Under the pieces are notes generated by a model that saw only the letters and a program-made list of their open reading frames with translations, ran no database searches and was not told the origin of the DNA. From Desulfarculaceae bacterium (GTDB lineage: Bacteria; Desulfobacterota; Desulfarculia; Desulfarculales; Desulfarculaceae), in NCBI GenBank assembly GCA_021737145.1, contig JAIPEN010000005.1, positions 1 through 64,000 of the forward strand: DNA of 64,000 bases. Direction: 5' to 3'. The translations under genes and the position numbers were made by a program. This document shows positions 24,901 to 39,339 of the stretch, piece after piece; within the stretch, counting starts at the first letter, position 1, and every line of letters begins with the position of its first letter.

Positions 24901-25319
24901 CCGGGCTCAAAAAGTTCTATCGCTACGATTTCTCTTTTTTCAACACGCCGCACAGCGGGGTCTACCGCATCATGCCGGTCACCCTGGAGCGGGTGGACCC
25001 CTGGCAGGCCGGGGCGGCCCTGGCCGGCGAGGTGGCCACCACCGCGGCCAAGGCCTATCTGCTGGACCACCAGCTCAGCCCGGTGGTGGACCCGGCCCGT
25101 TGCCGGGGCTGCGGCCGCTGCGCCGAGATCTGCCCCTTCGAGGCCATCACCCTGAAGCAAAACCCGGACGGCAGCTTCACCTCCCAGGTCTTCCGCCACA
25201 ACTGCGTGGGCTGCGGAGGCTGCGTGGGGCGCTGCCCGGTGTCGGCCCTGGACATCCCCTACTTCTCCAACCAACTCCTGGAGCAGATGGTGGCCGGTGT
25301 CATGGGAAGCGAGGTCTGA
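21960..25319 (+). CDS. HdrA-like / GltD(NfnB)-like flavoprotein-ferredoxin fusion
   Basis: A 1119-residue cytosolic flavin/iron-sulfur protein. Order: HdrA-like N-terminal Rossmann segment (about 13-30); 4Fe-4S motif CTGCSRCMELC (113-123); a GltD/NfnB-type unit from about 153 with Fe-S cysteines, FAD motif [14 protein letters not shown] (250) and NAD(P) motif VIGGGNSAMDAA (377) closing at FAAGDAVSGPST (520); Cys-rich CLQCASCCECLECEAAC (615-631); a second HdrA-like part with ACNG (731), CVCC (790s) and another Rossmann motif (875); and two C-terminal ferredoxin motifs (about 1048 and 1082). It likely links NAD(P)H with Hdr and ferredoxin partners. It starts at a GTG overlapping korC. It lacks the DC-U/C motif found in the two other HdrA proteins here. 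Confidence 0.8.
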   Translation: MNQNGSKDPAPGVLVVGSGYGALKAAEDLSHAGIPVIWATRSSQFLDLPEGVEPFEDWPGDLNFQFRPLYLRVTRHPLVTPLTQTRLESLSLEDGSCAAHLRQDPVYVDYDLCTGCSRCMELCPLNHGEHPPLQRSPAFCPSRALLLDKRPVSPCRQACPLGVNAQAYLALTAAGSYDKALAVVRRDNPLPGVCGYICSHPCESACRRGELDEPLAIRDIKRFLFDHEAELGPAALPEPEMGPRGQKVAVVGSGPAGLSAAHFLNQQGFAVTILEAAAQAGGMLRRGINAFRLPRPVLEAEVEALEQSGVEIITGTKVESARHLLDQGFDAVLLTVGTQRDLRLNLPGEELDGVLHCLDFLSAVNLGEGGSVGQRTVVIGGGNSAMDAARTAVRLGARQVTVVAIETEYELPASPREVAEAAEEGVAFQLGYAPVGLSGEGAIAEVSLRRAHWERPEDGPPRIEFDSEDIESIEADTVIVAISQSTDLPGSPLGDEVKLGGGGRLAVNEDLATSLDGVFAAGDAVSGPSTVVQAMAAGRRAAARVHGYLTGEASPWRELDQDPHGVGEHLPISEDLLREPRQRMAQRQPKVRRRDFEAVDLGLTVSQAQAEAERCLQCASCCECLECEAACEQVGAIDHSRQGRALQVRAPAVVWAEAGAPPWQGQAAPERVFPIDPESYSADLMDVLMMGSAAAGLAMAPAAGLRVPAVPAEAPPRPRPATGRIGFFLCACNGSMAPAPALERILDLARPVPGVAHVDSVFSVCHPQGADQIAEAVDRHQLSQIILASCVCCPLNFQCISCNDQRTRARMHLFERLGLDRGMVETVNLRDHLHAGQFSQEQIVQRARAMLRPAFIRMRHPGALRMGDTEIKKRVLVLGGSQVGISAARNLALQGLSVRLVHRAWPSGQELPDSIAARPLDDSLEDNITAVEAAEIEAIRGVLGDFKVKAKLDGRWRTWSADVVCLTDENLIGLSLYAGQTGLKKFYRYDFSFFNTPHSGVYRIMPVTLERVDPWQAGAALAGEVATTAAKAYLLDHQLSPVVDPARCRGCGRCAEICPFEAITLKQNPDGSFTSQVFRHNCVGCGGCVGRCPVSALDIPYFSNQLLEQMVAGVMGSEV

Positions 25320-25320
25320 G

Positions 25321-25746
25321 ATGGCGCGGGTGAACATCCTGGGCATCGCCTGCAACTGGAGCCCCTGGTGCTGCTACAACGCGGCGGGCCAGGCCGGGCT
25401 GGAGCTGCCCTCCAACTTCAAGATCATGCGGGTGATGTGCATCGGCCGCATCAACCAGGCCCTTATCTTGCGGGCCTTTGAGCACGGAGCCGACGGGGTG
25501 ATCCTCTTGGAATGCGAGGACTCCGACTGCCGCTACGGCCCCGGCCCCGAGTTGGGCCACTCCAACGTGGCCCGGGTGCGCCGTCTGCTGCACTACCTGG
25601 GCATCGGCCAGAAGCGGCTCAAGGAGATGACCTTCCAGGCCGACCAAAAGCAGGAGCTGGTGGACGCGTTGTGGGAGTTCGCGGGCCGCATCGAAAAAAT
25701 GGGCCCCAACCCCGGCAAGCCCGGACGGGAGCGCAAGGCATCGTGA
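25321..25746 (+). CDS. MvhD/FlpD-type hydrogenase iron-sulfur subunit (cysteine form)
   Basis: A 141-residue [2Fe-2S] protein of the MvhD family, which passes electrons to HdrA. The conserved cysteines are Cys11, Cys17/18, Cys40, Cys65 and Cys70 (CNW...CCYNAAG, MCIGR, ECEDSDC). Here the second cysteine site is a normal Cys codon, unlike the paralogue at 37186. It starts one base after the stop of the fusion gene and overlaps the HdrCB start (GTGA). Confidence 0.88.
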   Translation: MARVNILGIACNWSPWCCYNAAGQAGLELPSNFKIMRVMCIGRINQALILRAFEHGADGVILLECEDSDCRYGPGPELGHSNVARVRRLLHYLGIGQKRLKEMTFQADQKQELVDALWEFAGRIEKMGPNPGKPGRERKAS

Positions 25747-26966
25747 AGCTGGACAGCCCTGAAATCAAGCGGATCATCAAGGAGCGCTCCCTGTACATGT
25801 GCCTGGAGTGCGGCAAGTGCTCCGCCTCCTGCCCCCGGCTTCTCACCGGCAAGGAGTACTCGCCCCGCCTGCTGGCCCACAAGCTCATCGCCGAGCCGGG
25901 CGACCTGGCCTACATCCAAAACGCGGTGTGGGAGTGCCTCACCTGCGGGCTGTGCGAAGAGCGCTGCCCCTCGGGGGTGCAGTTCAGCCAGGCCATCCTG
26001 GACCTGCGCGCCGAGCTGAGCAAAGCCCTGGGGCTCACCGGCTTCCGGGCCCACGACGGGGCGGTGCACTCCTGGATGCGCATCATGACCTCGCCGCGTT
26101 TGGAGCAGAACCGCCTGGACTGGCTCACCCCGGAGCTCAAGGTGGCCACGGACGGGCCGGTGGCCTTTTTCACCGGCTGCGTGCCCTACTTTGACGTGTT
26201 TTTTTCCAACATCGGGGTGGACACCCTGAGCCTGTCCTCGGACGCCATCCGCCTGCTCAACTTCCTGGACATCGAGCCGGTGGTGCTGGGCAACGAGCGC
26301 TGCTGCGGCCACGACCTGCTTTGGACCGGCGACCGCGATAACTTCGCGGCCCTGTGCCGCTTGAACTACCAGGAGTTCAAGGACCACGGGGTCGAGGAGG
26401 TCATCACCAACTGCCCCGAGTGCTACCAGGCCCTGGGCACCTACATGCCCCAGGTCATCGAGGGCTTCGACCTCAAGGTGACCCTGCTGATAGACCTGCT
26501 GGAGCGCGAGGTGAACAAGGGCGGGCTCTCCTTCCGGCCTTTGGAGCAAAAGGTGACCTACCAGGACCCCTGCCGCCTGGGCCGGGGCGCCGGGCGCTAC
26601 GAGGAGCCGCGCAACCTGCTCAAGCGGGTGCCCGGCCTGGAGCTGGTGGAAATGGCCAACAACCGCCACAGCGCCATCTGCTGCGGCAACAGCTCCTTTA
26701 TCAACTGCGACGCCTTTTCCAAGCGCATCCAGGCCGCCCGCCTGGACCAGGCCCGCGACACCGGGGCCGAGACCCTGGTCACCGCCTGCCCCAAGTGCAT
26801 GATCCACACCTCCTGCGCCCTGCGCGACCCCGCGCCCGGCCCCCAGGCCCCGCTCAAGGTGCGCGGCCTGGTGAGCATCCTGGCCGAGCAGATCGAGTGG
26901 GCCCAGGACGAGACCCCGCGCCGCAAGTCCGGCGCGGGCGGCGGGAGCCGAGGCGACAAGATTTAA
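25743..26966 (+). CDS. HdrC-HdrB fusion (HdrD-like), iron-sulfur protein
   Basis: A 407-residue protein. The N-terminal HdrC part has two 4Fe-4S motifs (Cys20, 23, 26, 30 and Cys65, 68, 71, 75). The C-terminal part has two CCG domains (ERCCGHDLLW...NCPEC and DPCRLGRG...ICCGNSS...ACPKC), which in HdrB hold the non-cubane 4Fe-4S clusters that reduce disulfides. The soluble HdrC-HdrB fusion resembles HdrD or glycolate-oxidase-type GlcF/LldE proteins. It starts at GTG 25743 overlapping the MvhD gene. The natural disulfide or other acceptor is unknown in sulfate reducers. Confidence 0.85.
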   Translation: MKLDSPEIKRIIKERSLYMCLECGKCSASCPRLLTGKEYSPRLLAHKLIAEPGDLAYIQNAVWECLTCGLCEERCPSGVQFSQAILDLRAELSKALGLTGFRAHDGAVHSWMRIMTSPRLEQNRLDWLTPELKVATDGPVAFFTGCVPYFDVFFSNIGVDTLSLSSDAIRLLNFLDIEPVVLGNERCCGHDLLWTGDRDNFAALCRLNYQEFKDHGVEEVITNCPECYQALGTYMPQVIEGFDLKVTLLIDLLEREVNKGGLSFRPLEQKVTYQDPCRLGRGAGRYEEPRNLLKRVPGLELVEMANNRHSAICCGNSSFINCDAFSKRIQAARLDQARDTGAETLVTACPKCMIHTSCALRDPAPGPQAPLKVRGLVSILAEQIEWAQDETPRRKSGAGGGSRGDKI

Positions 26967-27033: not shown

Positions 27034-29460
27034 ATGAGCGAGCAAAACCAGAACATCGAGCCCCGGGTGGGGGTGTACGTCTGCCACTGCGGACTGAACA
27101 TCGCCGGGGTGGTGGACTGCGAGGCGGTGGCCGACTACGCCGCCGGCCTGGACGGGGTGGTGGTAAGCCGGCACGACGGCTACTGCTGCTCGGAGCCGGG
27201 CCAGAACCGCATCAAGCAGGACATCGCCGAGCAGGGCCTCAACCGGGTGGTGGTGGCCTCCTGTTCGCCCCGCCTGCACGAGTCCACCTTCCGCCAGTGC
27301 CTGGCCGGGGCGGGGCTGAACCCCTACCTGCTGGAAATGGCCAACCTCCGCGAGCAGTGCTCCTGGGTGCACGGCGCCGAGCCCGAGGCGGCCACGGGCA
27401 AGGCCCGCGACCTGGTTCGCTCGGCCGTGGCCCGCACCAAGGGCCTCACCGTGCGCACCGAGATCGAGGTGCCCATGGCCAAGTCCACCCTGGTCATCGG
27501 GGGTGGCGTGGCCGGGGTGCAGGCGGCCCTGGACCTGGCCGACGCAGGCTACCAGGTGACCCTGGTGGAAAAAGAGCCCAGCATCGGAGGGATGATGGCC
27601 AGGTTGGATAAGACCTATCCGACCATGGACTGCTCCATATGAATTCTCGGGCCTAAGATGGCGGATGCCGGTCGGCATCCCAACATAACCCTCCTGACGG
27701 GAAGTCAGGTGGAATCGGTCGGCGGCTACGTGGGCAACTTCACTGCCCGCATTCTCAAGAAAGCCCGCTTCGTGCGCGAGGGCGAGTGCACCGCCTGCGG
27801 CGACTGCGTGGAGGTCTGCCCGGTGGTGGTGCCCGACGAGTTCAACGTGGGGCTCTCCTCGCGGCGGGCCATATACCAGCCCTTCCCCCAGGCCGTGCCC
27901 TCGGCCTATGTCCTGGACCAGGACAACTGCCTGGGCCACGACCCCATCAAGTGCGGCAAGTGCGCCGAGGCCTGCCAGAAGAACTGCATCGACTTCGACA
28001 TGAACGACGAGGAGATCGAAGTGTCGGTGGGCACCATCATCGTGGCCACGGGCATGGAGGTCTACGACCCCACCGTCCTGGACGAGTACGGCTACACCCG
28101 CCACCAGAACGTGCTCACCTCCTTGGAGCTGGAGCGCCTGATATCCTCGGGCGGGCCCACCCAGGGCGAGGTGGTGCGTCTCACCGACCGCCAGGTTCCC
28201 AAGTCGGTGGCCTTCATCCAGTGCGTGGGCTCGCGCTCCCAGCGCAGGGGCAATCCTTATTGCTCCAACATCTGCTGCATGAACACCATCAAGAGCACCC
28301 TGCAGCTCAAGGAGCACTACCCGGAGGTGGAGCTCAAGGTCTTTTACATCGACATCAGGGCCTTTGGTAAAGGCTTTGAAGACATGTTCCGCCGTTCACG
28401 CGGCGAGGGGGTTCACTTCATCCGGGGCCTGCCCGGCGAGATCAAGGAAGACTCGGATAACCAGGACCTGATCCTCACCGTGGAGAACACGGCCACCAAC
28501 CAGCTGGAGGAGCACCGGGCCGAGATGGTGGTGCTGGCCACGGGCGTGCATCCGCCCGAGGAGATGCACATCGTCCAGGAGATGCTGGCCTTGCAGAAAT
28601 GCTCGGACGGCTTCTATTTGGAAGCCCATCCCAAGCTGCAACCCGTGGACTCGGCCACCCGGGGCATCTTCTTCGCCGGCTGCGCCGAGGGCCCCAAGGA
28701 CATCAAGGAGTCGGTGACCCAGGCCTCGGCCGCGGCGGCCCGGGCCATGCGCCTTATGACCCCGGGCAAGCTCCTGGTGGAGGCCATCACCGCCGAGGTG
28801 CGCCCCGAGGCCTGCACCGTGTGCGGCATCTGCGCCAAGGTCTGCCCCTACAACGCCATCGTGGTGGACAAGAAGTCGGGCAAGCCGGCGGTGGTCACCG
28901 AGGCGGCCTGCGCCGGCTGCGGCACCTGCGCGGCCGAGTGCCCGGCCGACGCCATCCACATGCACCACTTCACCGACGGGCAGATCAACGCCCAAATCGA
29001 CGCCATCCTGGAAGACGATCCCGCCGGGGTGATCCCGGTGTTCGCCTGCAACTGGTGCTCCTACGCCGGGGCCGACTTCGCGGGCGTGTCCCGTTTGCAA
29101 TACCCGGCCAACACCCGCCTGATCCGCACCATGTGCTCGGGCCGGGTGGACGAGGACTTCGTGTGGCGGGCCTTCAAGCAGGGCGCGGCGGTGGTGCTGG
29201 TATCTGGCTGCCACTTCGGCGACTGCCACTACATCGACGCCAACCACTGGACCGACAAGCGCATCAAGCGCATGCACCGCAAGATGGAAAAGCTGGGCAT
29301 CCGGCCCGAGCGCCTGCAACTGGAGTGGATCAGCGCGGCCGAGGGAGTGCGTTTCCAGGGCGTGATGCAAGATATGGAACAGCTGCGCGCCGGGGTCAGC
29401 CCCAAGGAGATCAAGGAGACCCAGCGCGTCCTGGCCGAGCAGAAGAAGAAAAAGAAATAG
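27034..29460 (+). CDS. hdrA: HdrA-MvhD fusion, selenoprotein (Sec203 at in-frame TGA)
   Basis: Read through the single TGA at 27640, the gene encodes 808 residues in one frame. Order: N-terminal CHCG Hdr segment; FAD motif VIGGGVAGVQAALDLADAG (about 153); the HdrA motif MDCSI-U-ILGPKM, where homologues have Cys in place of Sec203; 4Fe-4S motif CTACGDCVEVCP (252) and CGKCAEAC; CVGSR...CSNICCMNTI; two C-terminal ferredoxin motifs (about 594 and 630); and a fused MvhD domain from about 670 (ACNWCSYAGADFAG). HdrA bifurcates electrons through its FAD. Both halves are fully conserved and a SECIS-like hairpin follows the TGA, so a frameshift or stop is very unlikely. A 67-base gap separates it from hdrCB upstream. 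Confidence 0.92.
27640..27680 (+). promoter_or_regulatory. UGA selenocysteine codon with bacterial SECIS hairpin (hdrA)
   Basis: The TGA is at 27640-27642. A perfect 7-bp stem (27663-27669 with 27674-27680) closes a GGTC loop. The apical G is about 30 bases from the U of UGA, within the range for bacterial SECIS elements, and the GGUC loop matches the SelB-recognised loop of E. coli fdhF. Confidence 0.85.
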
Positions 29461-29487
29461 TCCCCGCGGCGGGTGATCCGGCCGGGG

Positions 29488-29997
29488 CTACCAGTTCTTG
29501 GGGCGTTGCTGGGCCTTATAGGGCAGATCGAAGCGCTCGGACAGGGCCTCCACCGCCAGGCCGGCCTGGGAGCCGGGCACCACGCAGGACACGCTGGATA
29601 TGCTGGTGCTGATGGCCTGGGGGCAGACCCCTACCGAGGCCAGGCTGGTGAACATCACGCCCGGGATGCGCGGTTTTTCCCGCAGGTGGGGCCCGAACAG
29701 GGTGAGCACGGTCACGTCGGGAAGATAGGTGATGGCCCGGGCCTCCAGGTCGTGCTTGGCCTTCTCCAGCACCACCAGGGCGTGCTCCAGGTCCTTGCCC
29801 GCCACCACCAGCGACAGGTTAAAGGCGTCCTCCTGGTCCAGGCCGGAGACCAAAAGCTCCACGTTGATGCCCTGGGCGGCCAGGGCGGCCATGACCACCC
29901 CCGGCCCGTCCATGGTGTTGAGGGCGGAGAGCACCCGCAGCATGGAGCGGCCGTCGCTCTGCATCAGCCCCCCTACCTTGAGCTTTTCTTCCGCCAT
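29488..29997 (-). CDS. ACT-domain protein
   Basis: A 169-residue protein that reads as two ACT-type beta-alpha-beta units (about 10-80 and 90-160); the segments MDGPGVVMAALAAQGINVELLVSG and PGVMFTSLASVGVCPQAISTS match the aspartate-kinase type of ACT repeat. ACT domains bind amino acids or other small ligands. The gene is 23 bases downstream of the acyl-CoA ligase gene on the same strand; such ligase-ACT pairs are common next to 2-oxoacid ferredoxin oxidoreductases, so it may sense or channel an aryl or branched acid. It converges with hdrA. Confidence 0.8.
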   Translation of the reverse strand: MAEEKLKVGGLMQSDGRSMLRVLSALNTMDGPGVVMAALAAQGINVELLVSGLDQEDAFNLSLVVAGKDLEHALVVLEKAKHDLEARAITYLPDVTVLTLFGPHLREKPRIPGVMFTSLASVGVCPQAISTSISSVSCVVPGSQAGLAVEALSERFDLPYKAQQRPKNW

Positions 29998-30020
29998 CTA
30001 GGCCGCCCCGCCCATGTGCC

Positions 30021-31304
30021 CTAGTCCCACTTGCGCCGGTCCAGGATCTTGCCGTGGAAGTCGGGGATCGTGCCCCGAGGCACCACCTCCACCTGGCCCT
30101 TCACCGTAAGGAACTCGCGCAAATCCTGCTCCAGCATGCGGCACAGGGCCAGCTCCCGCCCCACATCCTCGGTCAGCTCCACCTTGAGGGTGAGCAGGTC
30201 CTGGTCCTGGTGCCGGCTCACCTCGGCCTGGTACTTGAACACCTCGGGCCGCGCGGCGAACAGCTCGTCCAGCTGCCAGGGGTGCACAAAAGTGCCCCGT
30301 ACCTTCACCGCCTGATCCATGCGCCCCAAGACGCCCTTCAGGCGGGGGCTGGTGCGGCCGCAGGAGCATTGGCCCTCCATCCACATGGACAAATCTCCGG
30401 TGGCCAGGCGCAGCATGGGATAGGCCGGGCTCAGGTTGCTGGCCACCACCTCGCCAGCCTTGCCCGGGGGCTGGGCCTGGCCGGTGGCCGGGTCCACCAC
30501 CTCCACCAGCATGCCCTGGGGCACGTGCAGGCCCTGGGCCGCTTGGCACTCGTAGCCCAGGCAGCCCAGATACACCGTTGCGTAGCTCTGGCGCACCGTG
30601 ATGCCCAGCTTTTCCTGCAAACGCCGGCGCAGGCTCTCGGGCAACATCTCCGCCCCCACCACCGCCGCCTCCAGAGCCAGGTCCGCGGCCGGGTCCAGGC
30701 CCATGGCCTCGGCCCGTTGGGCCAGGGTCATCAAAAAACTGGGGGTGCCCATGTAGGCGCTCACTTTTAGTTTTTGCATCACGCGCACCTGCATGAAGGC
30801 GTTGCCCGTGCCGCTGGGCAGCACCGTGGCCCCCAGCATCTTCAGGGAGTCGTCGAGCATGTGGGCATAGGGCCAGAGGTGATAGGAGAAGGTGTTGAGC
30901 ACCCGGTCGCCGGGCAGGATGCCCCCCCCGCACAGGGCCTCGGCCAGGGAGGTCTGTTGGTAGCCGCTCTCGCCGGGCTGCCAGATGAAGCCTGGGTTGA
31001 TGTAGATGCGGTGAAACTGCTCGGCCGGAACCGTCTCGAAGCCGCCGAAAGGCGGGTCCCGCTCCTGCCGGGCCACCAGGTCACTCATGCGCATCAGGGG
31101 AAGGCGGTCCAGGTCGCCCAGGCCCTGAAAGGATCCCGCCACCACCCCGGCCTGGCCGTAGATCTGGCCGTAGGCCGGGGAGCGCTCCAAGACCAACTCC
31201 ACGGTCTGGCGCAGCCGGCCCTCCAGCTCAGCCTGACTGACGGACCAGGGGCCGGTTTCGGCGGGCTGGTCGAAATAGCGCCAAGGGCGCTGGTTGCTGG
31301 CCAT
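30021..31304 (-). CDS. Phenylacetate-CoA ligase-family (PaaK-like) AMP-forming enzyme
   Basis: A 427-residue adenylate-forming enzyme. It has the PaaK-type layout and C-terminal region (RLATGDLSMWMEGQCSCGRTSPRLKGVLGRMDQAVKVRG is split into TGDLS, CSCGR and a hinge GR.DQ). The usual P-loop TSGTTG-like site is replaced by the variant INPGFIWQPGESGYQQT, so activity on the usual acid is uncertain. Start 31304 (MASNQRPWRYF) is preferred because AAAGGGG precedes it; an in-frame start at 31400 lies upstream of the predicted promoter. It forms an operon with the ACT protein and is divergent from the MetF cluster. Confidence 0.78.
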   Translation of the reverse strand: MASNQRPWRYFDQPAETGPWSVSQAELEGRLRQTVELVLERSPAYGQIYGQAGVVAGSFQGLGDLDRLPLMRMSDLVARQERDPPFGGFETVPAEQFHRIYINPGFIWQPGESGYQQTSLAEALCGGGILPGDRVLNTFSYHLWPYAHMLDDSLKMLGATVLPSGTGNAFMQVRVMQKLKVSAYMGTPSFLMTLAQRAEAMGLDPAADLALEAAVVGAEMLPESLRRRLQEKLGITVRQSYATVYLGCLGYECQAAQGLHVPQGMLVEVVDPATGQAQPPGKAGEVVASNLSPAYPMLRLATGDLSMWMEGQCSCGRTSPRLKGVLGRMDQAVKVRGTFVHPWQLDELFAARPEVFKYQAEVSRHQDQDLLTLKVELTEDVGRELALCRMLEQDLREFLTVKGQVEVVPRGTIPDFHGKILDRRKWD

Positions 31305-31341
31305 CTGTGCCCCTTTCTTGCGGCCCAGCGGGATGCTTTCC

Positions 31342-31371
31342 AGCATATCCCAGGCGGGGATTTGGTTACAA
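31342..31371 (-). promoter_or_regulatory. Promoter of the ligase-ACT operon
   Basis: On the minus strand TTGTAA and TATGCT are 18 bases apart, giving a leader of about 30 bases before the start at 31304. Confidence 0.55.
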
Positions 31372-31404
31372 GCGGGGGCGCGGCGGCCGGGCGGCAGCAA
31401 CTTC

Positions 31405-31433
31405 TTGACAACAAATACCGGCTTGGCAATAAT
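31405..31433 (+). promoter_or_regulatory. Near-consensus promoter of the MetF-HdrA cluster
   Basis: TTGACA and AATAAT are separated by exactly 17 bases (-35 at 31405-31410, -10 at 31428-31433) within an AT-rich patch. The start of transcription would be near 31440, about 370 bases before the first gene. Confidence 0.75.
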
Positions 31434-31808
31434 AAAGATCGATTAACTATGAATTGCATGCCTTGATCGCCAGGTAGCTGTTGATGAGTGACACGATCCT
31501 GATCTCCCACGGCGGCCCCCAACCGGCAAACCCTCGGCGGATTCCCTTTTCTTCCCATCTGCTCGCACTCCTTGGCTCGTACAGCGGTTTTTTCACCGAC
31601 CGCCGCCCTGGCCTCACATCAAACTCCTCTATCGTGCGTTCGGCTTCTTGCGCCGCCCTTAGCGCGGCCCGGGAAGCTTCGATCAGATAGGTCCGCCCGG
31701 CGGGCCGTTTTTATTGGTTTTTTTCTAATGGGACCGGTCCCGCCGCTCCCCTAGCCGCCCCCCCGTGGACGGCGGTCAGTTGGGCGGGCGCCTGTGTTGA
31801 GAGGGGAT
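31434..31808 (+). other. Long leader (about 370 bases) of the MetF-HdrA cluster
   Basis: The region between the promoter and the first start codon has no credible gene. It is pyrimidine-rich on the plus strand and contains an intrinsic terminator at 31690-31725. A promoter followed by a terminator before the first gene suggests transcription attenuation by a ligand, protein or peptide, or a separate small RNA of about 270 bases. I could not match it to a known riboswitch; in particular no cobalamin-type GCCACTG box is present. Confidence 0.5.
31690..31725 (+). terminator. Intrinsic terminator inside the leader (candidate attenuator)
   Basis: A GC-rich stem (31690-31695 with 31701-31706) and 5-base loop are followed by TTTTTATTGGTTTTTTT. 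It faces the plus strand and lies 83 bases before the MetF-like gene and 250 bases after the promoter. Confidence 0.65.
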
Positions 31809-32672
31809 ATGAGTTTCGCGCAGAAGCTGGCAGATGGTCAGTTCGCAACCCTGGTTGAGTTGGAGCCGCCCAAGGGCGTGGAGGTGGGCGCCTTTGTGGG
31901 GCACGCCCAACGCATCAAGGGCAAGGTGGATGCGGTGGTGGTGCCGGAGATGGCCAACGCGGTGATGAAATTGAGCTCTCTGGGAGGCTGCATGCTTCTT
32001 GCGGGCAAGGGCTTGGAGACGGTGCTGCAGGTCTGCTGCCGCGACCGCAACCGCCTGGCCCTGCAGGCAGACCTATTGGCCGCGGCGTCCCTGGGTATCA
32101 CCAACGTCATGGCCGTGGAGGGCGAAGCGCCCAGCTATGGCGACCATCACAAGGCCAGGGCGGTCTACGACCTGGACGAGCTGGAGCTGATGCAGGTCAT
32201 CGCCAAGCTCTGCGCGGGCAAGGACATGGCCGGGGTGGAGCTGGAGGGAGCCCCCAGCTTCACCGTGGGCGCCACGCTCAACACCGGCGCCCTGGGCACG
32301 GTGCAACAGGAGCTGGCCGAGCTGGACAAGAAACTGGCCGCCGGGGCCCAGTATTTCCTCACCCCGCCGGTGTTTGATCTGGATTCTCTGGCCGCCTTCA
32401 CCAAACACCTGGGCGACCGCGAGGTGAAGCTGATCCCCAACGTGTTGCTGCTCAAGTCGGTGGGCATGGCCCGGGCCATCGGCCGCCACCTGAAGCACGT
32501 GCACATGCCCGATTCGCTCATCGGGCGGGTCAAAGACGCTCCGGACCGGGTGCGCGAGTGCGTGCTCATCGCCCAGGAGCTCATCGCTGGCATCAAAGCG
32601 GCCGGCTACAGCGGGGTGATGATATCCCCCCTGGGCTGGGAAGACCGGCTGCCGCAGATATTGGGGGCGTAA
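31809..32672 (+). CDS. Methylenetetrahydrofolate reductase-like protein (MetF paralogue 1)
   Basis: A 287-residue TIM-barrel protein of the MetF family. VELEPPKG near the start, the [38 protein letters not shown] region (split here as CRDRNR and VMAVEGEAP) and a final [12 protein letters not shown] correspond to the flavin/folate-binding strands of MetF. It is more divergent than the second copy at 38320. GAGGGGAT precedes ATG 31809. As the first gene of the cluster it may be a second folate-binding subunit or act on a different C1 carrier; which is unknown. Confidence 0.75.
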
Positions 32673-32719
32673 TTCAGGCGGCGGCCGCCACGGCCGCGCC
32701 AAAGCCAAGGAAGAAGTGC

Positions 32720-35700
32720 ATGGCACAGCGCGCGCAAGGAACGGGCAACACGGCCCCGGCCCCGCCGGTGGGGCGGGTCATGGTGGTGGGGGGCGGCATC
32801 GCGGGCATGCAGTCGGCCCTGGACCTGGCCAATTCCGGCTACTACGTCTATCTGGTGGAGAACGACCCGGCCATCGGCGGTCTGATGTCCCAACTGGACA
32901 AGACCTTCCCGACCAACGACTGCGCGATGTGAATAATCTCGCCTAAACTGGTCGAGGTCGGCCGGCATCTGAACATAGAGCTTCTCACCAACGCGGAACT
33001 CCTGGCCCTGGACGGCGAGGAAGGCGACTTCACCGCCCGGGTGCTGCAGCATCCCCGCTTCGTGGACCTGGAAAAATGCACCGCTTGCGGCGAGTGCGCC
33101 AAGGTCTGCCCCATCCCCCTGGATAGCGAGTACGACGCGGGCATCGCCCAGCGGAGGGCTGCCTACAAGCGCTACGCCCAGGCCATTCCCGGGGCCTATT
33201 CCATTAGCAAACGGGGCCAAAGCCCCTGCAAGGTGGCCTGCCCGGCCCACATAGCGGTGCAGGGTTACGTGAACCTCATCGCGGCGGGGCGCTATCGCGA
33301 GGCCCTGCGCGTCATCCGCGACGAAAACCCGCTTCCCGCGGTCTGTGGCCGGGTGTGCACCCATCCCTGCGAGGCGGCCTGCGCCCGGGGGGATCTGGAC
33401 GAGCCCATCGCCATCCGCGACCTCAAGCGCTTCGTGGCCGAGTGGGAAATCGAGCAGGGCGAGATGGACCTGCCCGAAACCAAGCCGCCTCGGGGAGAGA
33501 AGATAGCCATCATCGGATCCGGCCCGGCCGGGCTCTCGGCGGCCTACTACCTTTCCCTGGAAGGCTTCGAGGTCACCATCTTCGAGTCTCTGCCCGTGGC
33601 CGGGGGCATGCTCCGGGTGGGCATCCCCGACTACCGCCTGCCCCAGCGCATCCTGGACTACGAGATCGACTACATCAAGGCCCTGGGGGTGGAGATACGG
33701 CTCAACAGCACCCTGGGCGAGGACTTCACCGTGGGCCAGCTCCAGCAAGAGGGCTACAAGGCGGTGATCATGGCCGTGGGCGCTCACCGCTGCCTCACCC
33801 TGGGGGTGGACGGCGAGGACGCGGCCGGGGTGCAGCCGGGCGTGGAATTTTTGCGCCAGGCCGGCCTGGGCCAGGCCAAATCTCCCGGCAAGCGGGTGGT
33901 GGTGGTGGGCGGCGGCAACGTGGCCGTGGACTCGGCCCGCACCGCCCTGCGCCTGGGCAGCCAAGAGGTCACCATCCTCTACCGCCGCACCCGCAAGGAG
34001 ATGCCGGCCTACGAAGACGAAGTCGAGGAGGCCCTGGAAGAGGGCGTCAACATCGAGTTCCTGGTGGCGCCTAAGCGCTTCATCTCCACCGACGGCAAAC
34101 TCAGCGGGGTGGAGGTGGTCAAGATGGAGCTGGGCGAGCCCGACGCCTCGGGCCGGGCCCGGCCCCAGGAAATACCCGGCTCGGAGTACGTCATAGAGGT
34201 CGACGGCGCCATGGCCTCCATTGGCCAGGAGCCGGACCTGGAGTGCCTGGACGACACCTGCCGCCTGGACGTGGGCCGCAAGAACTGCCTCCAGGTTGAC
34301 GATGTGAGCCTACAGACCAACCTGGCCTTTGTCTTCGCCGGCGGCGACGCGGTGCTGGGACCGGCCACGGTCATCGAGGCGGTGGCCCAGGGCAAGGAGG
34401 CGGCCCGCTCGGTCACGGCCATGATCGAGGGCCGGGACATGAAACAAGGCCGGCCCCGCAAGCTCAACCCGGTGCAACCGGAGAGCATCAACCAGCCGGA
34501 GCAGGCCCGGGAGCATCTGCCCCATGCCGACCCGGTGGAGCGGGCCAAGAACTTCCAGGAGGTGCTGGGCCCCTATACCGAGGAGCAGGCCCAGGCCGAG
34601 GCCTCCCGCTGCCTGGCCTGCGCCGGGTGCGCCGAATGCATGCTCTGCGTGGATGCCTGCCTGGCCGAGGCGGTTAACCATGACCAGGAGCCCCGCGAGC
34701 TGGCCCTGGAGGTGGGTTCGGTGGTGCTCTCCAGCGGCGCCCGGCCCTTCCAGCCCGAGACCTCGGGCCTGGACTTCCGCTACGGCCAAAACCCCAACGT
34801 GCTCACCGGCCTGGAGTTCGAGCGCCTGCTCAGCCCGGCCGGCCCCACCCAGGGCCATTTGGTGCGCCTGTCGGACCACAAGGATCCCCTGAAAATCGCC
34901 TGGCTGCAATGCGTGGGGTCGCGGGACACCAACCGCTGCGGCAACGGCTACTGCTCCTCGGTTTGCTGCATGTACGCCATCAAGCAGGCCCTGGTGGCCA
35001 AGGAGCACGCCCCCGGCGATTTGGAATGCACCATCTTCAACATGGACATCCGCACCTTTGGCAAGGACTACGAGCTCTACTACCACCGCGCCCGGGACCA
35101 GGAGGGGGTGCGCTTCATCAAGTCGCGGGCCCACACCATCTACGACGACCCGAAAACCGGCGGGGCGCGCATCGAGTACGCCACCGACGACGGCCAGGCC
35201 ATGGAGGAAGTCTTCGATCTAGTGGTGCTTTCGGTGGGCCTGCAGGTGCCGGCCTCCAGCGGCGAGCTGGCCCAGCGCATCGGGGTGGAGCTGGACCAGT
35301 ACCGCTTCGCCCAGACCGATCCCATGGCCCCGGTGGCCACCAACCGGCCGGGAGTCATGGTGTGCGGCAGCTTCCAAGGCCCCAAGGACATCCCCAGCTC
35401 GGTCACCGAGGCTAGCGCGGCGGCGGCGGCGGCGGCGGGCAAGCTGGCTCCGGCCCGCTGGAGCGCCACCAAGAGCCTGGAGATGCCGGCCGAGCGCGAC
35501 GTGGCCGCCGAGGAGCCCAGGGTGGGGGTGTTCGTGTGCAAATGCGGCATCAACATCGCCGGAGTGGTGGATGTGCCCTCGGTTACCGAATACGCCGCCA
35601 CCTTGCCGGGCGTGGTGGTGGCCGACGACGGACTGTTCGTCTGCTCCCAGGACGTGCAGGAGCAGATGAAGGAGAAGATCGCCGAGCACAACCTCAACCG

Positions 35701-37186
35701 GGTGGTGGTGGCCTCATGCAGCCCCAAGACGCACGAGCCCATCTTCATGGACACCCTCACCTCTTGCGGCCTGAACAAGTACCTGTTCGAGATGGCCAAC
35801 ATACGCAACCACGACTCCTGGGTGCACACCGCCGAACCTGCCCTGGCCACGTCCAAGGCCAAGGACCTGGTGCGCGCGGCGGTGGCCCGGGTGACCACCC
35901 ACCGCGCCCTGCCCAAGATGACGGTCGGGGTCAAATCCCGCTGCCTGGTGGTGGGGGCCGGAGTGGCCGGCATGACCGCCGCCCTGTCCCTGGCCGACCA
36001 AGAGTTCGAGGTGGTGCTGGTGGAGCGCGAGCCCATGCTGGGCGGCTTCTCCCGCCAGCTGACCCACACCATCGAGGGAGCGGACATCAACGCCCACCTG
36101 GATACGCTCATGGAGCGGGTGCTGGAGCACGAAAACATCCAGGTGCTCACCGAAACGGTGATCACCGGTTTCAGCGGCTATAGGGGCAACTTCACCACCG
36201 AGGTGATCGTGGGCCCGGCCATGTACGAACGCAAGATCAACCACGGGGCCCTGATTCTGGCCACCGGGGCCAGTGAGTACGAGCCCACCGAATTCGGCTA
36301 CGGCCAGGAGTCCCGCGTGGTCACGCAAGTGGAGTTGGCCCAGCGCCTGGAGGAGCCCGACGGGGCCCAAGGGCTCGACTCGGTGGTGATGATCCAGTGC
36401 GTGGGCTCGCGGCGCGAGGACTACCCCAACTGCTCGCGCATCTGTTGCCAAAGCGCGGTGAAGAACGCCCTGCATCTCAAGGAACTCAACCCCGATATGC
36501 AGGTCTACGTGCTCTACCGCGACATCCGCACCTACGGCCTCATGGAGGACTACTACACCGAGGCCCGCCAGAAGGGCGTGGTCTTCTTCCGTTTCGCCCA
36601 GGAGCTCCCCCCGGTGGTTACCCCGGGCGAGGACGGCATGCTGGTCAGCTTCATCGACCACGTGCTGGGCCGCGAAATTCAGGTGAGGGCCGACCTGGTC
36701 ACCCTGAGCGCGGGCATGCGCCCCCGCGAATCCGAGGACTTGTGGTCCATCATGAAGCTGGCGCGCAACGCCGACGGCTACCTGCTGGAGGCCCACGTAA
36801 AGCTGAGGCCGGTGGACATGGCCAGCGACGGGGTCTACGTGTGCGGCACGGCCCACGGACCCAAGCTGGTCTCCGAGTCCATCTCCCAGGCCCTGGCCGC
36901 GGCCGGCCGGGCGGCCACCCTGTTGGCCCAGACCGAGCTGGAGCTGTCGCCGGTCACCTCGCGGGTGAACCCGGAGCTGTGCGCCTCCTGCCTGGTGTGC
37001 GTCTATTCCTGCCCCTATCAGGTGCCGCGCATCAACCAAGACGGAGTCAGCCAAATAGACGAGGCCCTGTGCCGGGGCTGCGGCATCTGCGCCGCCGAGT
37101 GCCCGGCCAAGGCCATAGAACTCAATTGGTACGAGGACGACCAGATCCTCGCTCAGGTGGATGGTCTGCTAGAGGGAGCAATGTAA
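32720..37186 (+). CDS. hdrA: Giant HdrA with inserted GltD/NfnB unit and second HdrA, selenoprotein (Sec71)
   Basis: Read through the single TGA at 32930, one frame encodes 1488 residues. Order: FAD motif (about 21); NDCAM-U-IISPKL, where HdrA homologues have Cys instead of Sec71; [12 protein letters not shown] (120); GltD/NfnB unit with Cys motifs (168-230), FAD motif [14 protein letters not shown] (264), NADPH motif [12 protein letters not shown] (394) and closing [11 protein letters not shown] (541); [13 protein letters not shown] (631); rest of HdrA unit 1 (CVGSR...CSSVCCM near 731-755); HdrA unit 2 from CKCG (937), FAD motif (1075), CVGSR...CSRICC (1227); two ferredoxin motifs (1421, 1452). 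It should use NAD(P)H and two HdrA flavins with the MetF/MetV partners. The second HdrA unit has no Sec. Its TAA overlaps the next ATG. Confidence 0.92.
32930..32965 (+). promoter_or_regulatory. UGA selenocysteine codon with SECIS-like hairpin (giant hdrA)
   Basis: TGA at 32930-32932. A 6-bp stem with two G-U pairs (32948-32953 with 32960-32965) closes a GAGGTC loop whose GGUC is shared with the SECIS of the other hdrA. The apical G is about 26 bases from the UGA. Confidence 0.8.
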
Positions 37187-37653
37187 TGGAGGCCTTTGAG
37201 CCGGTGATTGTGGCTTTCTGCTGCAACGCCTGAGGTTATTCAGCCGCGGACCTGGCAGGTTCGATGCGACTGAATTACCCGGTGCACGTACGCATAATCC
37301 GCGTGCCCTGCACCGGGAAAGTGGACATTTTGCACATCCTGCGCGCCTTTGAAAAAGGCGCCGACGGGGTTTACCTGGTGGGCTGCATGGAAGGGAGCTG
37401 CTTCTATGAGCAGGGCAACTTCAAGGCCCGCAAAAGGGTGGAGCACGCCCAGCGCCTGCTGGAGCAGGTGGGCACCGGCGGCGAAAGGGTGCAGATGTAC
37501 AACCTCACCTCGGGCGAGGCCCCGAAGTTCGCCCAATATGCCCGGGAGATGAGCGAACGCATCATGGCCCTGGGGCCCAATCCGGCCAAGCTGGCCGGCG
37601 CGGCTTCCGCCGCCCCGGCCAAGGGACAGGCGGCGGAAAGAGGAGCGGCGTGA
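37186..37653 (+). CDS. MvhD-type iron-sulfur subunit, selenoprotein (Sec16)
   Basis: Read through the TGA at 37231, the frame encodes 155 residues. CCNA-U-GYSAADLAG at the N terminus aligns with the CNWC-YAGADLAG motif of MvhD proteins, so Sec16 replaces a cluster cysteine. Further conserved cysteines follow (VPCTGKVD, GCMEGSCFY). In methanococci the related VhuD subunit is also a selenoprotein. It passes electrons to HdrA. The ATG overlaps the TAA of the giant hdrA and it ends one base before metV. Without readthrough only a 15-residue peptide would be made, and the remaining open frame would lack its start and first cluster cysteines. Confidence 0.92.
37231..37272 (+). promoter_or_regulatory. 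UGA selenocysteine codon with SECIS-like hairpin (MvhD)
   Basis: TGA at 37231-37233. A long interrupted hairpin spans 37241-37272: outer CAG/CTG, middle CGC/GCG and upper 6-bp stem (37248-37253 with 37257-37262) with a GGC apex. The apical G is about 23 bases from the UGA. Confidence 0.78.
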
Positions 37654-37654
37654 A

Positions 37655-38323
37655 ATGATCGTAGCGAACGGCAAACCCCTTGAAGAAATCATCGAGGTAG
37701 TCAAGGACCACCGCAAAATCCTGGTGGCCGGCTGCAACGAATGCGTCACGGTTTGCGAGGTGGGAGGCAGCAAGGAGGTCGGCATCCTGGCCTCGGCCCT
37801 GCGCCTGCACTTCCTGAACCAAGGCATCGACGCCCAGGTAGGCGAAACCACCCTGCAACGCCAGTGCGACCGCGAGTACGTGGTGGGGGCCCGCGAGGAA
37901 GTGGAGCCCCACGACATCGTGGTCTCCATCGCCTGCGGCGTGGGCTGCCAGTTCATGGCCGAGGAGTACGACACCATGCCCGTGGTGCCCGGCGTGAACA
38001 CCTCCTTCATGGGCGGGGCCCTGGAGCGCGGCATATGGAGTGAGCGTTGTCAGGGCTGCGGGGCCTGTGTGCTGGCCACCACCGCGGGCATCTGCCCGGT
38101 CAGCCGCTGCGCCAAGAGGGTGCTCAACGGCCCCTGCGGCGGCTCCACCAAGGGCAAGTGCGAGATTTCCAAGGACCTGGACTGCGCCTGGCAGCTCATC
38201 GTCGACCGCCTGAAGTCCCTGGGCCGCCTGGAGGACTACGAGACGCTGGCCCCCATCAAGGATTGGACCACCGACCGGGCGGGGGGGCCGCGCACCCGCG
38301 TCAAGGAGGAGGTGGCGTCATGA
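37655..38323 (+). CDS. metV: MetV, methylenetetrahydrofolate reductase iron-sulfur partner
   Basis: A 222-residue cysteine-rich protein. Cys27, 30 and 34 (GCNECVTVC) open the N-terminal domain, ACGVGCQF follows, and the C-terminal zinc/Fe-S part reads CQGCGACVLATTAGICPVSRC and NGPCGGSTKGKC. This is the MetV (MTHFR C-terminal-like) architecture of the Moorella-type MetFV complex, where it carries electrons from HdrA/MvhD to MetF. It starts one base after the MvhD stop and its own stop overlaps the metF ATG (ATGA). Confidence 0.9.
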   Translation: MIVANGKPLEEIIEVVKDHRKILVAGCNECVTVCEVGGSKEVGILASALRLHFLNQGIDAQVGETTLQRQCDREYVVGAREEVEPHDIVVSIACGVGCQFMAEEYDTMPVVPGVNTSFMGGALERGIWSERCQGCGACVLATTAGICPVSRCAKRVLNGPCGGSTKGKCEISKDLDCAWQLIVDRLKSLGRLEDYETLAPIKDWTTDRAGGPRTRVKEEVAS

Positions 38324-39252
38324 GCGTGAACACCCCCAGCAAACTGGAAAAGATGCTCAAGGCCGGCCACCAGGCGGTTACCAGCGAGTGCGGCCCGCCC
38401 CGGGGCAGCGCGGCCGAGGAGATCAAGGAGAAGGCCGAGCTGATCAAGGACCACGTGGACGCCATCAACATCACCGACAACCAGACCTCGGTGACCCGGC
38501 TCTGCTCCCTGGCTTCCTGCATCCACCTGAAGCTGGCCGGTTTGGAGCCCATCCTGCAAATGGTGACGCGGGACCGCAACCGCATCGCCATGCAGAGCGA
38601 CATTCTGGGCGCGGCCTCCTTTGACATCAACAACATCCTGTGCCTGTCCGGCGATCACCAGAGCTTCGGCGACTGCTCGGAAGGCCAAAACGTGCACGAC
38701 CTGGACTCCATGCAGCTCATCCAGACCGTCAGGCACATGCGCGACGAGGGCAAGTTCCTGGGCGGCGACGACATCAAGCGGCCGCCCGACATGTTCGTGG
38801 GGGCGGCGGCCAATCCCTTTGCCGATCCTTACGAGATCCGGGTGCCCCGCCTGGCCAAGAAGGTGGCTGCCGGGGTGGAGTTCATCCAGACCCAGTGCAT
38901 CTTCAACCTGGACAAGTTCGAGCAGTGGCTGGGCGAGGCCCGCGACCGGGGCCTGTTGGAACAGGTCTACATCCTGGCCGGGCTCACCCCGCTCAAGTCG
39001 GCGGGCATGGCCAAATACATGAAAAACCGGGTGCCGGGCATGGACGTGCCCGACGAGGTGGTGGAGCGCATCGCCGGGGTGCCCAAGGAAAAGCAGGCCG
39101 AGGAAGGCGTCAAGATGTGCATCGAGTCGGTGCAGCGCCTAAAGGACGTGGAAGGGGTGCACGGCTTCCACGTCATGGCCATCGAGTGGGAGGAGAAGGT
39201 GCCCGAGATCGTGGAGGGCGCCGGCCTCTATCCCCGGCCCAAGCTGGACTGA
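38320..39252 (+). CDS. metF: Methylenetetrahydrofolate reductase (catalytic subunit)
   Basis: A 310-residue FAD-dependent TIM-barrel enzyme that interconverts methylene- and methyl-tetrahydrofolate in the methyl branch of the Wood-Ljungdahl pathway. TSECGPPRG, DAINITDNQ, VTRDRNRIAMQSDILGA and LCLSGDHQSFGD are the expected folate/FAD segments. Overlap with metV and the cluster context (two HdrA units, MvhD) indicate an Hdr-linked reductase as in acetogens rather than a simple NADH enzyme. In a complete-oxidising sulfate reducer it would run oxidatively. A terminator follows. Confidence 0.92.
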   Translation: MSVNTPSKLEKMLKAGHQAVTSECGPPRGSAAEEIKEKAELIKDHVDAINITDNQTSVTRLCSLASCIHLKLAGLEPILQMVTRDRNRIAMQSDILGAASFDINNILCLSGDHQSFGDCSEGQNVHDLDSMQLIQTVRHMRDEGKFLGGDDIKRPPDMFVGAAANPFADPYEIRVPRLAKKVAAGVEFIQTQCIFNLDKFEQWLGEARDRGLLEQVYILAGLTPLKSAGMAKYMKNRVPGMDVPDEVVERIAGVPKEKQAEEGVKMCIESVQRLKDVEGVHGFHVMAIEWEEKVPEIVEGAGLYPRPKLD

Positions 39253-39297
39253 AAAAGGCGACGCCCTGGGCGGCTTTTGCGGGAGGGATGAAACCCG

Positions 39298-39339
39298 CCC
39301 GGTTGGGGACGAAACGCCCCAACTGGGCGGCGTTTTTTT
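39298..39339 (+). terminator. Rho-independent terminator after metF
   Basis: An 11-bp stem with one G-U pair (39298-39308 with 39317-39327) and an 8-base loop is followed by CGGCG and seven Ts. The T-run overlaps the last codons of the convergent histidine kinase gene. Confidence 0.85.

Follow-up and report, generated by a model that had tools for sequence, protein, structure and literature searches.

Three UGA codons in Hdr and MvhD genes of a Desulfarculaceae bacterium are very probably decoded as selenocysteine

We analysed a stretch of 64,000 nucleotides from the genome of an anaerobic Desulfarculaceae bacterium (assembly GCA_021737145.1, contig JAIPEN010000005.1, positions 1 to 64,000; hereafter the window). 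It carries three genes, hdrA1, hdrL and mvhD, that each contain one in-frame TGA, very probably a selenocysteine (Sec) codon. Downstream of each TGA lies a hairpin, a candidate selenocysteine insertion sequence (SECIS). The genes, codons and hairpins are as follows, with the basis of each assignment in brackets.

27034 to 29460, plus strand: hdrA1, an HdrA with a C-terminal MvhD domain, 808 residues, predicted Sec at residue 203 (translation, PDB match, Pfam)
27640 to 27642, plus strand: predicted Sec codon TGA of hdrA1 (translation, own-genome codons, phylum matches)
27663 to 27680, plus strand: putative SECIS hairpin of hdrA1, GGATGCC-GGTC-GGCATCC, loop GGUC 27 nt after the UGA (folding, conservation)
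32720 to 37186, plus strand: hdrL, a double HdrA (translation, Pfam)
32930 to 32932, plus strand: predicted Sec codon TGA of hdrL (translation, GTDB relatives)
32948 to 32965, plus strand: putative SECIS hairpin of hdrL, CTGGTCG-AGGT-CGGCCGG, loop AGGU 22 nt after the UGA (folding, conservation)
37186 to 37653, plus strand: mvhD, PF02662, predicted Sec in a CxxU motif near the start; an alternative start GTG at 37183 is possible (translation, PDB match, Pfam)
37231 to 37233, plus strand: predicted Sec codon TGA of mvhD, at site 1 (translation, relatives)
37247 to 37263, plus strand: putative SECIS hairpin of mvhD, CGGACCT-GGC-AGGTTCG, loop GGC 20 nt after the UGA (folding, conservation)

The initial annotation had reported that the frame stays open beyond each TGA, that each TGA stands at a conserved cysteine position and that an automatic annotator would call broken genes. 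All three statements are borne out. The translations continue past the TGA codons, and Pfam and PDB matches extend over each of them on both sides. The read-through product of hdrA1 matches 5odc_A over residues 9-661 (777 bits), covering the Fe-S and FAD regions, and Pfam finds ferredoxin-type and FAD-type domains in it. That of mvhD is an MvhD/FlpD protein (PF02662, 160 bits for a cut-off of 22). In hdrL, a GltD-like insert lies in the middle, between two HdrA halves. The N-terminal half has the predicted Sec and lacks the N-terminal Fe-S domain; the C-terminal half has this domain and carries neither Cys nor Sec at the site. Alignment with relatives places Cys codons of homologues at the TGA positions. 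A plain open reading frame (ORF) caller cuts each gene at its TGA, and automatic annotation would split three genes of central energy metabolism in this manner.

The machinery for Sec insertion, for which a search had been suggested, is encoded in the genome (assembly of 4.03 Mb, 29 contigs, 94.7% complete). All four genes were found. selC, the tRNA-Sec with anticodon TCA, scores 73 bits for a cut-off of 47, and ARAGORN concurs. selB (402 bits), selA (611 bits) and selD (375 bits) are all above their curated cut-offs. A second tRNA-Sec place in the genome, at 47.1 bits, is barely above the cut-off. The selD match (contig C19:137897-138823) itself has one in-frame TGA.

The TGA codons are conserved among relatives, with cysteine as the usual replacement. 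For the HdrL N-terminal half, we used the best 80 of 521 confirmed GTDB stretches; of these 80, 27 have no MvhD on the stretch. The site codon is TGA in 74, TGC in 4 and TGT in 2. For hdrA1, the 30 best matches in the phylum, itself included, divide into 20 with TGA and 10 with Cys. For MvhD, we examined 80 MetV regions, made up of the best 40 listed metV matches after the window's own and 40 picked by hand among the remaining listed matches, with two from the own genome. Of these regions, 52 have TGA at site 1, 23 have Cys and one has ACA; in the other 4, the codon is unreadable. The idea that a MetV-linked MvhD always has Sec was dropped: it holds for 23/23 among the GTDB relatives, which were selected as near to this HdrL, and fails in this wider MetV set. 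Only divergent members have codons other than TGA or Cys; among the 168 distinct MvhD domains, these number 5. At the HdrA site of the own genome, other codons occur in the HdrA C-terminal halves and in one HdrA-like paralogue with GAG. In 59 aligned stretches of relatives (7 are gaps), the C-terminal half of HdrL never has Cys or Sec at the corresponding position.

A hairpin follows each UGA, as the initial annotation had said. Its estimate of 23-30 bases was close; the loops actually lie at 27, 22 and 20 nt. In a published model of bacterial SECIS elements, the loop stands 16-37 nt after the UGA, with a G in the first two loop positions (PMC13188914, in the part available), and all three hairpins agree with it. 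Two observations on folding energy weigh against reading the hairpins as SECIS elements. In this DNA of 66% GC, the energies of the three hairpins are equalled by 7%, 15% and 26% of 4,619 other codon anchors. In addition, TGA sites of MvhD have a median energy rank of 0.141 vs 0.149 for Cys sites, which is no better. This comparison covered 83 HdrL and 54 MvhD sites with at least 60 nt after the codon, at least 50 anchors and, for HdrL, at least 60% identity. Hairpin stability is uninformative in GC-rich DNA and was dropped as a test. An Rfam scan of the window at the gathering threshold gave 0 matches, so there is no Rfam call of a SECIS.

The evidence for the SECIS elements is conservation, not energy. 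In 77/77 TGA sites, and in 0/6 Cys sites, the best HdrL hairpin has the loop AGGT at a distance of exactly 22 nt. Of its stem pairs, six are unbroken in 75/75 distinct sequences with TGA and the outermost one in 72/75, and the hairpin is disrupted in each of the 6 Cys orthologues. The MvhD loop is GGC in 27/29 TGA sites, and the loops of 25 Cys sites are scattered. Within the MetV set, the six inner pairs are all kept in 46/50 TGA vs 0/23 Cys versions of MvhD, and in 17/17 TGA vs 4/42 Cys versions of HdrL. Codon choice follows the same line. We compared the mean share of the modal codon inside vs outside the hairpin, using the sites with flanks within the locus, other than the window itself. 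For TGA genes, it is 0.99 vs 0.60 in HdrL, 0.93 vs 0.57 in MvhD and 0.85 vs 0.56 in hdrA1; for Cys genes, it is 0.58 vs 0.64, 0.49 vs 0.53 and 0.69 vs 0.72, respectively. The second stem pair of hdrA1 shows compensatory change, being C-G in 12, U-A in 6 and U-G in 2 of 20 TGA genes, paired every time. All Cys versions of hdrA1 (10/10) break at least two stem pairs. Within the own genome, a SECIS core, CTGGTCGAGGTCGGCCGG, is common to three different Sec-HdrA genes (L113, L114 and window 32948-32965).

We propose, with a probability of about 0.92, that selenocysteine is inserted at UGA 27640, 32930 and 37231 and that the window encodes three bacterial selenoproteins. SelB and tRNA-Sec would decode the three codons under the direction of a stem-loop 20-27 nt downstream.

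These genes belong to a larger own-genome set, in which TGA occurs in 4/16 MvhD-domain places and in 4/20 HdrA-region places. HdrA/MvhD pairs were formed where neighbourhood allowed the assignment, other MvhD-like and HdrA-like places staying unpaired. Window HdrL, C7:24785/27812 (with Sec at MvhD site 2) and C17 are Sec/Sec pairs. The hdrA1 fusion is Sec/Cys, its fused MvhD domain having Cys at both MvhD Sec sites, and C22 is Cys/Sec. C7:259k, C7:135k and C26 are Cys/Cys. Three of these pairs adjoin metV, which has five matches in the genome: the window with 2 Sec, C22 with 1 and C26 with 0.

The second MvhD site came to light in the domain at C7:27812-28180 (L098). Here the usual Sec site is Cys, and a TGA stands at a second Cys position (SG-TGA-HPGDC), which corresponds to the second X of 9sfi_K; a placement of this TGA at site 1 was rejected. 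TGA at site 2 was found in 21 distinct MvhD domains of the loci. Over the 168 distinct domains, with U for Sec and C for Cys, the pattern at sites 1 and 2 is U,C in 79, C,C in 63, C,U in 20, U,U in 1 and other in 5. The sole domain with TGA at both sites is L058 9082. A published review table, of which we had a part, already permits two Sec in MvhD. We met no prior description of the alternating sites or of the 2/1/0 Sec series in a partial literature search, and make no firm claim of novelty.

The graded series bears on whether the UGA codons also act as a selenium switch. At low selenium, translation would yield a truncated piece and the cell would rely on its Cys paralogues. The idea is in keeping with a genome whose MetV-linked HdrA/HdrL-MvhD operons contain 2, 1 and 0 Sec. 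Methanococcus maripaludis and M. voltae are described as swapping Sec and Cys isoforms by selenium (PMC11097638), and the authors of the Desulfobacterium autotrophicum HRM2 genome proposed the same idea (PMC2702500), as far as the available parts of both sources go. Against it, the paralogues may catalyse different reactions. Judging from sequence, we regard such a switch as possible, with the odds somewhat against it.

It is more doubtful that Sec in HdrA functionally depends on Sec in its partner MvhD. We paired each HdrA with the first MvhD that follows it on its own strand (2.7-6.0 kb, unfused), and both MvhD sites were readable in 102 of 106 pairs. Sec-HdrA has Sec at one of the two sites of the next MvhD in 54/58 pairs, Cys-HdrA in 32/44. 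Overall, MvhD has Sec at site 1 only in 67 pairs, at site 2 only in 18, at both in 1 and at neither in 16. The notion that short-type operons combine Sec-HdrA with Cys-MvhD proved wrong, most such MvhD having Sec at the second site. Several points speak against dependence. There are four exceptions (L052, L063, L083, L093), and 20 Sec fusions of the hdrA1 type have Cys at MvhD site 1 (site 2 refers to the own-genome copy only). A MetV tree, made by a quick method and with L233 entered as Sec, needs 3 HdrL and 7 MvhD changes and contains 1 well-supported independent pair; it does not support independent coupling of the HdrL and MvhD Sec states. Kinship may explain the co-occurrence. Because relatedness is strong, we treat the co-occurrence as a lead and not as demonstrated dependence.

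Two further explanations would deny selenium any part. Nonsense mutations or sequencing errors, leaving three broken genes, would account for the cuts made by the ORF caller, and are hardly credible given TGA in 74 of the best 80 HdrL relatives with Cys in the other 6, the selectively frozen hairpins, and the 4 HdrA and 4 MvhD places with TGA in one genome. The initial annotation had named absence of selB or selC, or TGC or TGT at these codons, as grounds for abandoning selenocysteine; the sel genes are present, and TGA recurs in other, separate assemblies. A reassigned or leaky TGA, read genome-wide as an ordinary residue, would leave the frame open in all three genes, and is just as negligible, because mvhD itself ends at an ordinary TGA stop (37651-37653), tRNA-Sec and selA/B/D are in the genome, and a scan of the window shows no other clear read-through, within the reach of a method that is blind near gene starts. 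The scan used codon usage and looked for an in-frame TGA flanked by coding-like sequence on both sides. It recovered 27640, 32930 and two other places. In each of these two, on our reading, one gene ends and a new in-frame ATG lies 5-6 codons later. It did not recover 37231, and can therefore miss Sec codons near a gene start.

Selenocysteine decoding being preferred, the alignments suggest where the three Sec residues sit. The HdrA site corresponds to residue 197 of 5odc_A and to an X in 9sfi_A. The mvhD Sec aligns with the first X of 9sfi_K. We infer that X in 9sfi stands for Sec; the structure was taken as archaeal from its molecule names. Cys197 of HdrA is described as binding, across the subunit boundary, the N-terminal [4Fe-4S] cluster on the way from FAD to ferredoxin, and fused HdrAs, including that of Moorella, have complementary Cys197 and N-terminal domains (PMC9012536, in part). 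Sec in HdrA would thus replace Cys197, the ligand by which an HdrA unit reaches over to the N-terminal cluster of its partner unit. For HdrL, alignment and the published description of the structure suggest that this ligand falls within one chain, from the Sec of the N-terminal half to the cluster of the C-terminal half. In MvhD, Sec would replace a conserved Cys of CxxC in the [2Fe-2S] subunit and probably binds that cluster. These ligand roles, like the metabolic role discussed below, are less certain than the decoding itself.

The initial annotation had proposed that selenium tunes the electron path between MvhD and HdrA. This proposal fits in part. The MvhD Sec is in the [2Fe-2S] subunit that feeds HdrA; the HdrA Sec, at Cys197, would lie on another leg, from FAD to ferredoxin. 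According to the available part of PMC12350162, there is a mobile arm, a shuttle cluster, HA3, takes the low-potential electron, and the MvhD [2Fe-2S] cluster feeds the FAD. The cluster held by Cys197 may be HA3. This identity is not secured, because the same source locates HA3 at the HdrA C terminus, a point against it. In a broader proposal, selenium would be the mark of the cluster that moves during bifurcation. The N-terminal shuttle cluster would have Sec197 as its cross-unit ligand, through a bond that forms and breaks with the rotation of the mobile arm and that Sec makes softer and faster. A second Sec, in MvhD, would match it on the donor side, at either of two interchangeable [2Fe-2S] ligand positions. 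Selection would keep both, and the graded versions with 2, 1 and 0 Sec would serve different selenium supply. Taken jointly, these elements make an unlikely whole. HdrA residue 197 is a position at which the idea can be tested.

The neighbours of hdrL and mvhD suggest a metabolic role. The row metF-hdrL-mvhD-metV-metF is contiguous, from 31809 to 39252, and includes, besides the two genes described above:

31809 to 32672, plus strand: metF, first copy, methylenetetrahydrofolate reductase (MTHFR), PF02219 (Pfam)
37655 to 38323, plus strand: metV, PF12225 DUF5981, MTHFR C-terminal type (Pfam, phylum search)
38317 to 39252, plus strand: metF, second copy, PF02219, start codon provisional (Pfam)

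Because hdrL and mvhD adjoin metF and metV and share the domain plan of the Moorella thermoacetica HdrA, their products most likely form part of an MTHFR that is linked to NAD(P)H, bifurcates or confurcates electrons and belongs to the Wood-Ljungdahl pathway, as judged from this architecture. The M. thermoacetica MetVF-HdrABC-MvhD system also has MetV, MetF and MvhD together and a double HdrA with a GltD insert and complementary Cys197 and N-terminal domain (PMC9430772, PMC5861303, PMC9012536). Its HdrA is reported to oxidise NADH (PMC9430772), and M. thermoacetica selenoproteins include HdrA and FrhD (PMC1794560), all in the parts of these sources at hand. Two points weigh against an MTHFR role. 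In Sporomusa, in the part of the work available, the Hdr part did not copurify with MetVF and no NADH oxidation was seen in the assay. Unlike the Moorella cluster, which holds hdrB and hdrC in the part of the literature available, the row here has neither gene and no room for them among its five genes (31809-39252); the closest gene that might serve is HdrD-like (25743-26966). Moorella belongs to a different phylum.

Selenoprotein forms of these subunits are already known, and the sequence evidence here is unusually complete. The initial annotation had named them for methanococci and Deltaproteobacteria, in agreement with the available parts of the literature. Sec HdrA/MvhD-type proteins are published for methanogens (PMC2933860, PMC11097638), and Sec HdrA, HdrL or MvhD for deltaproteobacteria (PMC1794560, PMC2702500, PMC5109826). 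A close case is D. autotrophicum HRM2 (Sec HdrA1/A2, HdrL1/L3 and MvhD1/2/3/5), which likewise has a Sec HdrA, a Sec HdrL (an Hdr/glutamate synthase fusion) followed by mvhD, a full sel gene set and Cys paralogues alongside. In contrast to our case, the available part of the HRM2 account gives no hdrL beside metV/metF and no mapping of Sec to cluster ligands (PMC2702500). Syntrophobacter fumaroxidans, also a deltaproteobacterium, has multiple Sec copies of HdrA (7) and FrhD (8), and three of its operons are, unlike those here, of the hydrogenase type glpC-hdrA-frhD-frhG-frhA (PMC1794560, in part). The Vhu-Hdr selenoproteins of Methanococcus (VhuD, HdrA; PMC2933860, PMC11097638, as available) and the solved chains 9sfi/9t1s are also comparable, with the same aligned HdrA and MvhD positions in 9sfi. 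The second X in the MvhD of 9sfi differs from the mvhD described here, which has Cys at that place. Archaeal Sec insertion uses a different kind of SECIS.

The near-invariant SECIS hairpins, the alternating MvhD Sec sites, the association of Sec-HdrA with Sec-MvhD and the MetV-linked operons with 2, 1 and 0 Sec are leads for further work. HdrA and both MvhD sites each occur in a Sec and a Cys form, and together with the conserved SECIS elements they offer a comparative series for the role of selenium at an Fe-S ligand in electron bifurcation.

hdrA1 and the row metF-hdrL-mvhD-metV-metF probably belong to two transcription units, since two minus-strand ORFs (29488-29997 and 30021-31400) lie between them. 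A terminator-like hairpin at 39295-39330, with 14 pairs and a T run, lies 3' of the second metF. It is the longest of 6 such sites in the region, where 5.8 are expected by chance. The HdrD-like gene adjoins hdrA1. An MvhD-like domain at 25318-25746, the third in the window, adjoins both this HdrD-like gene and a GltD-like gene; its site 1 codon is AGC, thus neither Cys nor Sec, with a shifted CC.

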